Source: an uncultured Algisphaera sp. (GTDB taxonomy: Bacteria; Planctomycetota; Phycisphaerae; Phycisphaerales; Phycisphaeraceae). Taken from it: DNA of 35,349 nucleotides. The notes below the pieces were generated by a model. It did not search any database and had not been told where the DNA came from. It worked only from the letters and a program-made list of their open reading frames with translations. Made by a program: the position numbers and the translations under genes. Positions 30,400 to 31,916 of this stretch are shown piece after piece. How positions within the stretch are numbered: the stretch's first letter is position 1; every line of letters starts with the position of its first letter. The stretch covers positions 1 through 35,349 of the forward strand of contig CALLPP010000060.1 in NCBI GenBank assembly GCA_938015655.1, in the 5' to 3' direction.

Positions 30400-31329
30400 T
30401 CATTCCGGCTCGTTCAAACTCTCTACCTTCGCCGGCCGCAGCTTCTTTCGCAGGTCCTCAAACCGGAACCACGTGCCGCGGATACGCTCGGGTTTCTGGG
30501 GGCTTTTGAGCACGACGGTCATGCGTGAACCGTCGCCCTGCGGGTACAGCTCAATCGTGCCCGGCAGCGTCGCGGTAGGTCCCGAAGGCGTCGAGGCGGG
30601 CACCGTCAACTCTCCGGTGAGCACGGCGCTCAGCACGCTGGCCCCGGCAAAGTCAGTGAGCTCCACGCGGGTCAGCCGCCCGGTCTCAGGATGCATCTGC
30701 ATGCGCAGGTTCAATCCCGGCGGCTCAATTACCGCGTAGCCGTTGATCAGTTCGACTTCAGGCGCCGCGGGGCGGCGGTCCGGATCCAGCGGCATCAAGC
30801 CCAGTAGATAAGGCATGACCTCAGGCTGAATCGGCAGGGGCAGTCGACGGCGGATGGGCTGGCCATAATCACCGTGGTAAGCGGTTTCGGTGTCGAACAA
30901 GTCGAACATCCAGAACGCGCGATCGTCGCTGCCCGCCCAGATCTTCACGTCGCCCAGCACCTCCACCGTGAGGGCTGTGTCTAGGGGCCGACGAAAAATC
31001 AGCCGACCGTCGCCGCTTTCGCGCCGCTCGCGGCCGTCGTCTTCACGCCAGCGCAGCGCCACGTCGGTCTTCACGTACACGCGATCCACGGCGCTGGCGT
31101 TGGCGTTGTAGGCCCGGACCAGGTCGGCGTAGTCGGGCGCTGCGGCGGTGGGGATCGGGACGGGGTTGAGGTCGCGTGGGACGATGGGCCCCCGGGCGGT
31201 GCATCCCCCGAGCGCAACGGCCAGCGCGACCCACCCTCTCAGAACGTGTGTGAGAAGCCCCGCACGCCTGCGTGCGGCAAGCACGTGGCTTCTCACACAC
31301 AGTCTCAGCACGGCGTAGCGGGTTTTCAC
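30400..31329 (-). CDS. Outer-membrane-type lipoprotein, LolA/LolB-like fold likely
   Basis: 309 residues from a GTG at 31329, whose GTGA overlaps the stop of the upstream gene, so translation is coupled; the track start at 31431 is rejected. The mature part begins at the lipobox cysteine in ALGGCTARG. It has long beta-strand-like stretches (DVALRWREDDGRERR, DGRLIFRRPLDTALTVEVLG, AFWMFDLFDTETAYHGDYG) and a C-terminal ELYPQGDGSRMTVVLKSP, an arrangement like LolA/LolB lipid-carrier barrels, but no family was confirmed. The signal peptide is odd: 22 extra codons formed by a palindromic insertion (31237-31311) lengthen the N-region. Without them it would read KTRYAVLR-GWVALAVALGGC, a normal lipoprotein signal. 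Confidence 0.78.
   Translation of the reverse strand: MKTRYAVLRLCVRSHVLAARRRAGLLTHVLRGWVALAVALGGCTARGPIVPRDLNPVPIPTAAAPDYADLVRAYNANASAVDRVYVKTDVALRWREDDGRERRESGDGRLIFRRPLDTALTVEVLGDVKIWAGSDDRAFWMFDLFDTETAYHGDYGQPIRRRLPLPIQPEVMPYLLGLMPLDPDRRPAAPEVELINGYAVIEPPGLNLRMQMHPETGRLTRVELTDFAGASVLSAVLTGELTVPASTPSGPTATLPGTIELYPQGDGSRMTVVLKSPQKPERIRGTWFRFEDLRKKLRPAKVESLNEPE
31237..31311. mobile_element. Palindromic element inserted in frame in a signal peptide
   Basis: GTGTGTGAGAAGCC (31246-31259) and GGCTTCTCACACAC (31287-31300) form a perfect 14-bp inverted repeat around a CGCACG/CGTGCG inner stem. The palindrome is flanked by the near-identical direct repeats TCTCAGAAC (31237-31245) and TCTCAGCAC (31303-31311), which look like a 9-bp target duplication. 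Insert plus one repeat is 66 bp, exactly 22 codons, so the lipoprotein frame is preserved. Confidence 0.7.
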
Positions 31330-31916
31330 AGCTCGGCCTCCAGCACTTCGCCCAGCTGCTCGGTCACCTCGGCGATCTGCGACTCGTCCAGCTGCGGGTC
31401 CAGCACTCGCAGGGCGTCGTCCTCGTTCCACTTGCCAAAGTGGCCCTTGGTCACGTCAAGCTTGGGCGTAAACAGCCACCACTGCTGCACCGGCCCGTCG
31501 CCGTCGGGGTCATCCAGGGCCTCGGTGCCATCGTAGCGCAGCAGCTTCTTACGCATCAAAATGAGCGACACCACGAAGCGGAACGACTGCCGCCGCGGCT
31601 CGTCGGTGTCTTCCAGGCGTCGCAGCAGGTTCATCAGCATCCCGTCGTCCACGAAGGTCTTCTTCTTGGCGTTGGGTTCGGGCACCGTGGTCTTCCAGAA
31701 GCTGAACAGGCGGTCGGGGCGGTAGCCGTCTTCCCACGCCGCGTCGCCCACGTCCACGCGGCGCATGCCCAGCGTGTCTTTGGGGTCGCGCTCTTCAGCC
31801 GGAATGTCAACCAGGGCCGACCAGCAGGTGTCGCCGGGCGCGAGTTCGTCGCCCGACGCGACGCACACGCCCGAGGTTTTCTGCACGTCGTAGCTGGAGG
31901 CGGAGTATTTGGCCAT
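31326..31916 (-). CDS. Conserved hypothetical protein of planctomycete type
   Basis: A 196-residue soluble protein. Landmarks are the N-terminal CVASGDELAPGDTCWSALVD, then LFSFWKTTVPEPNAKKKTFVDDGMLMNLLRRLED, then RQSFRFVVSLILMRKKLLRYDG. I recall the same order of motifs in small uncharacterised planctomycete proteins, where the N-terminal cysteines may form part of a metal site; this is memory, not a search. The C-terminus is acidic. It precedes the lipoprotein gene with a four-base GTGA overlap, so the two are expressed together. That coupling hints at an envelope-related role, but no function is assigned. Confidence 0.75.
   Translation of the reverse strand: MAKYSASSYDVQKTSGVCVASGDELAPGDTCWSALVDIPAEERDPKDTLGMRRVDVGDAAWEDGYRPDRLFSFWKTTVPEPNAKKKTFVDDGMLMNLLRRLEDTDEPRRQSFRFVVSLILMRKKLLRYDGTEALDDPDGDGPVQQWWLFTPKLDVTKGHFGKWNEDDALRVLDPQLDESQIAEVTEQLGEVLEAEL

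Follow-up and report, generated by a model that had tools for sequence, protein, structure and literature searches.

The window, which is the whole 35,349-nucleotide stretch of DNA analysed, is one of the 219 contigs (C60) of a 2.51-Mb MAG that is 78% complete. Its minus strand carries two overlapping genes, the second of which encodes a lipoprotein with a short palindromic element lodged in its signal peptide. The features of the locus are as follows.

31326 to 31916, minus strand: conserved upstream neighbor, 196 amino acids, no Pfam or NCBIfam match, overlapping the lipoprotein start.
30400 to 31329, minus strand: lipoprotein gene with the insertion; its start codon GTG shares bases with the stop of the upstream gene (GTGA); the lipobox Cys is encoded at 31201-31203; net insert of 66 bp, or 22 codons.
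31242 to 31304, unstranded: MITE copy of 63 bp, of the short size class (terminal inverted repeats plus inner hairpin), its limits taken from about 15 further genomic copies.
31242 to 31259, plus strand: left terminal inverted repeat (TIR), GAACGTGTGTGAGAAGCC, identical to the consensus (18/18).
31287 to 31304, minus strand: right TIR, GACTGTGTGTGAGAAGCC, with two mismatches to the consensus (16/18).
31239 to 31241, unstranded: left copy of the target-site duplication, TCA, within CTCAG at 31238-31242.
31305 to 31307, unstranded: right copy of the target-site duplication, TCA, within CTCAG at 31304-31308.
31282 to 31284, minus strand: alternative in-frame GTG inside the element, 28 codons before the lipobox Cys; GAGAAG, noted on inspection of the sequence, lies a few bases upstream.

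A whole-genome search found relatives of the lipoprotein in 46 of the 51 genomes of the family, its own included, and a homolog of the same upstream neighbor is present at most of the 29 loci examined. The lipoprotein, used as a query in a scan of the genome collection, returned no close relative. The pair is conserved across the family, and the lipoprotein, like its neighbor, has no match in Pfam or NCBIfam. The region 30400-31916 is thus an undescribed conserved planctomycete gene pair.

The initial annotation described the element as a 57-bp palindrome with perfect 14-bp arms and flanking 9-bp direct repeats. The palindrome is present as described, with its arms at 31246-31259 and 31287-31300, and so are the letters of the flanking repeats, TCTCAGAAC (31237-31245) and TCTCAGCAC (31303-31311). 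However, comparison of the copies shows that the inserted unit is longer, 63 bp from 31242 to 31304. It starts with GAACGTGTGTGAGAAGCC and ends with GGCTTCTCACACACagTC, the right end carrying two substitutions, AG for GT. The duplication is correspondingly shorter, 3 bp and not 9 bp. Because the copies sit in CTNAG with TNA duplicated, the 9-bp repeat resolves into CTCAG/CTCAG and adjacent bases. Its last three letters belong to the element on the left (AAC) and to the host on the right (CAC), and their agreement at two of three positions is due to chance. The arithmetic by which the insert plus one repeat comes to 66 bp, or 22 codons, is correct. The translation of the insert is RLCVRSHVLAARRRAGLLTHVL. 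Folded as RNA, the insert has an energy of -42.3 kcal/mol (z = -5.6), and Rfam has no match in the region of the element.

The same DNA recurs throughout the genome, as the initial annotation had suggested should be checked. A search with the palindrome arm gave many copies, and about 16 of the family were catalogued in the MAG, the window copy included; the incompleteness and fragmentation of the assembly make all such copy numbers lower bounds. The 18-bp TIR, at up to three mismatches, occurs 15 + 17 times in the genome compared to 0 + 1 times for a reversed control pattern, so the repeats in the window are not a chance occurrence. Copies that share the TIR at both ends fall into several length classes of about 54-160 bp, and a search with a 161-bp consensus found seven near-full-length copies (145-161 bp) and a set of shorter ones. 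Placed side by side, the copies have the layout CTNAG-element-CTNAG, and most two-ended copies have the same middle base in both targets. This layout, together with matching flanks in related genomes, leads to the target duplication being read as TNA, with the qualification that the C and G that bound CTNAG are also the terminal letters of the element, so that sequence alone cannot separate a duplication of 5 bp from one of 3 bp. The features by which MITEs are recognized, a TIR of about 10-30 bp, a target-site duplication and dispersed copies without a transposase, are all present in the copy family.

In related genomes, the TIR is patchy yet widespread. It is strongly represented in the own genome (G000), G031 and G045, as well as in G108, which belongs to another family. 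Copies in G045, G031 and G040 are flanked by the duplications TTA/TTA, TCA/TCA, TAA/TAA and TGA/TGA. The genome-collection scan returned the exact 18-mer from planctomycete records only, those of Phycisphaerae and other planctomycetes. An exact paired-TIR pattern matched nothing in 198 genomes of the class, because it demanded two perfect ends. The inner sequences of the elements vary between planctomycete genomes, the TIR being common to them. One such inner hairpin, GGGTGCCACTGGCGGCTTGTCCGCCAGTG, found in elements of G040 (L182:1384-1521) and G045 (L177 and L186), occurs at about 20 further sites in G040 that do not match the TIR; it seems to be a second repeat family captured by the MITE, or the reverse.

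A search for DUF4096 located a full-length insertion sequence (IS) of 850 bp in the own genome (contig C92, L124:1434-2283). Its first frame, orfA, matches PF13340 with 101.8 bits and exceeds the cut-off of NF033580 (transpos_IS5_3); orfB, which shares about 90 bases with orfA near a slip-like, A/G-rich sequence, matches PF01609 with 66.7 bits and by itself attains 96 of the 110 bits of NF033580. The IS therefore has both the DUF4096 and the DDE transposase parts that characterize the IS5 family. Its ends, GACCGTGTACGAAAAGCG and GAACGTGTACGAGAAGTC, match the MITE consensus at 13 and 15 of 18 positions. The left flank is a complete TCA, and the right flank stops one base in, at the end of the contig. 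A left IS end on contig C118 and a right IS end on C39 are both flanked by TCA, which indicates at least one more IS copy in the genome. In other genomes, the same TIR adjoins IS5 transposases: it follows the C-terminus RRLSKDYESDPRSSEAMIRLAMINLMPHRLQPG at G023:C22 and precedes the N-terminus MTRTSYPSDLTDAQWSI at G027:C72. No second end could be located for the IS fragments in G010, G018 and G022, which were examined as candidates for complete copies, and their frames look decayed. The full-length IS is itself nested in the start of another transposase-like gene (MTPIYPSDLTDEQWSLL..., L124:1380-1433).

The IS5-type ends and the transposases that adjoin the TIR mean that the palindromes are best read as IS5-family MITEs. 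Mobilization in trans would be due to the C92 IS or a sister IS; since the two ends of the C92 IS have 5 and 3 mismatches to the 18-bp MITE consensus, a sister could be the real mobilizer. Like MITEs of IS5-family insertion sequences, the elements are short, have TIRs that resemble those of an IS5-family IS of the genome, duplicate 3 bp (TNA in CTNAG), lack their own transposase and occur in several size classes. Two features set them apart: the inner sequences differ between planctomycete genomes around a common TIR, and several copies lie in frame in proteins. In the open-access literature searched, they are not named, and neither this TIR nor IS5 MITEs in planctomycetes, nor MITEs in planctomycetes or Phycisphaerae at large, are described.

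The initial annotation had likened the element to the Rickettsia palindromic elements (RPEs). The likeness extends to the outcome, an in-frame coding palindrome, but not to the origin, which is an IS5-family MITE. Like RPEs, the elements are palindromic and are found in frame in unrelated protein genes, to which they add 22-45 residues here. Unlike RPEs, they have a recognizable IS5 partner and a target duplication, the copies are apparently mostly intergenic, and their coding openness is not above chance. Palindromic, protein-coding copies in frame might also suggest a REP or REPIN moved by a RAYT (REP-associated tyrosine transposase). GTAG/CGTC REPs are likewise small palindromes, some of them in genes, and have been reported in planctomycetes too (PMC3733652), but the elements described here have 18-bp TIRs and ends of the form TNA|GAACGTGTG, lack the GTAG/CGTC tag and are linked to an IS5-type DDE transposase and not to a RAYT. 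Membership of the REP/REPIN class was rejected on these grounds, and that of the RPEs is contradicted by the IS5 ends and the TNA duplication. With the exact 18-mer confined to planctomycete records in the collection scan, an RPE or RAYT-driven origin is very unlikely. A parallel among MITEs is provided by QMITE1 and QMITE2 of Coxiella burnetii, which overlap genes, sometimes in frame in the middle of an ORF, but differ in length and have target duplications of 2-3 nt and 7-11 nt with variable sequence, QMITE2 moreover containing a GTAG REP (PMC5896051).

The orthologs of the lipoprotein show what the gene looks like without the element. The G003 ortholog is 77% identical, has the same GTGA overlap and has the signal MSVFPPRSGAAGVLAAAALIAAGC without an insert. 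In the window, 40.7 codons separate the upstream stop from the lipobox Cys, compared to 21.7 in G003; the distance is about 17-27 codons at other tightly spaced loci and higher at looser ones. Subtraction of 22 codons from the window distance leaves 18.7. The expectation that orthologs would lack the 22 residues was thus borne out among those with the same upstream gene. The signal-peptide DNA cannot be aligned with that of orthologs beyond gene order, so the exact empty site is deduced from the target duplication. Long stop-to-Cys gaps in some orthologs could be taken to mean that the extended n-region is ancestral to all of them and the palindrome a native coding hairpin. This is exceedingly improbable: the closest ortholog that shares the overlap is shorter by 19 codons, G040 alone among the examined orthologs has a TIR match near its lipobox, and the same DNA is present at about 15 other loci. 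The copies elsewhere and G003 together were taken to rule out an ancestral n-region. In the G040 ortholog (L023, G040:C9), a longer element of about 239 bp occupies the same gene junction, overlaps the lipoprotein start and ends just before the signal peptide. It is apparently independent of the element in the window.

The claim of an in-frame insertion with an intact lipobox holds at the DNA level: 63 + 3 = 66 bp were added and the frame that was entered is free of stops. Whether the protein gains all of these residues depends on the translation start, which is ambiguous because a GTG inside the element could serve instead. One candidate is the GTG at 31282-31284; another, four codons further upstream, is 32 codons away from the Cys. 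The element could then effectively sit at the gene junction, with the old start displaced, translation proceeding from one of these two GTGs, the 22 residues being made in part only and the hairpin acting mainly in the mRNA. The GAGAAG upstream of 31282-31284, the great stability of the hairpin and the apparently independent G040 element, which adjoins the same signal peptide, are all in keeping with this possibility, as is a survey of REPs in which N-terminal copies were considered possibly extragenic since initiation can occur downstream (PMC3733652). However, an internal start would need initiation within a -42 kcal/mol hairpin, and both the window and G003 retain the GTGA overlap of start and upstream stop that coupled initiation at 31329 predicts. 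A displaced start is therefore possible but doubtful, and translation of all 22 residues is likely.

Beyond the window, at least three further members of the TIR family are inserted in frame, one in the own genome and two in G040. The first is a second 63-bp copy (C56:13351-13413) that lengthens a PEP-CTERM protein by 22 residues in the same frame. No orthologs of this protein were found in the family, and a paralog from the same genome was used for comparison instead; once the 22 residues are taken out, the alignment score rises from 202 to 214 and no gap is left at the site. The 4-HFC-P synthase (MfnB) of G040 contains an in-frame 132-bp element that has the same TIR and adds 45 residues. 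Pfam PF04476 matches positions 1-65 before the element and 71-226 after it, and without the 45 residues the protein aligns better to 17 of 19 orthologs. A second 132-bp copy, also in frame, is present in a DUF2169 protein, whose Pfam match falls into two stretches. In-frame insertion inside protein genes, a feature of RPEs, is observed at the window lipoprotein, C56, MfnB and DUF2169. The net length is divisible by three in all four cases. No copy with another net length (82, 95, 118, 131 and 145 bp) was observed within a gene, placement being settled for part of the copies only; a codon-bias test of intragenic placement, applied to every copy, lacked the power to classify the majority.

Taken together, the palindrome is very probably a MITE moved in trans by an IS5-family transposase into a CTNAG target, where an insertion in frame with the lipoprotein signal would have been tolerated. 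A transposase such as that of the 850-bp IS would act on the transposase-less GAACGTGTGTGAGAAGCC-ended element and insert it into CTNAG with duplication of TNA. In the window, a member of the 63-bp size class would have entered between codon 8 and the h-region of the signal peptide; with 63 + 3 bp and a stop-free frame, 22 codons are added and the lipobox is left intact, so that a protein with a longer n-region would be produced. Insertion is probably blind to coding and follows CTNAG. In this GC-rich DNA, an insertion of 66 or 135 bp would often enough leave a readable frame, and survivors would be expected at permissive sites, such as the n-region of a signal peptide, the rest being removed by selection.

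The family might instead have been domesticated, copies being kept in coding frames for a benefit of the basic peptide that they add, such as one to secretion or localization. Both clear in-frame copies of the own genome are in exported proteins, and one of them lengthens a basic n-region. However, four of the six frames of the 63-bp copies are open compared to a mean of 3.5-3.6 in randomized versions, and the G040 insertions are in unrelated proteins and use a different reading frame. Domestication is accordingly improbable, and the randomized-frame comparison does not support selection of the elements for coding. As the elements are no more stop-free than randomized sequence, passive tolerance combined with purifying selection suffices to account for them; a benefit of the in-frame insertion is possible but unsupported.

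In-frame insertion of MITEs is known from Rickettsia RPEs and Coxiella QMITEs (PMC10969869, PMC5896051), as is the presence of REPs inside genes (PMC3733652). The case in the window is a new, well-behaved example of this known phenomenon of coding MITEs, with a likely mobilizer identified. The partner IS and the repeated in-frame cases add to its interest. It is tempting to propose, although the balance tips slightly against it, that an IS5-driven MITE superfamily of the Phycisphaerae, defined by one common TIR, recurrently delivers in-frame peptide modules to unrelated proteins, including metabolic enzymes. This would be an RPE-like process outside Rickettsia with a mobilizer that can be named and tested. 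The entry of palindromic selfish DNA into protein genes has been hard to study in Rickettsia. The present system offers the element, its CTNAG target rule and size classes, a likely transposase and several occupied sites for which relatives without the interruption are available, which makes the rate of survival as an added peptide measurable. The same system can show whether only lengths divisible by three persist in genes. For annotation, a long n-region or an internal insertion in a protein of the Phycisphaerae may come from a MITE and calls for caution.

Another copy in the own genome, 159 bp long (L047, C89:16441-16599), lies in an open frame just before a different lipoprotein-like signal (VVWRGVVAGAVLAAVLSGAC). 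The real start of that gene may be a GTG downstream of the element.
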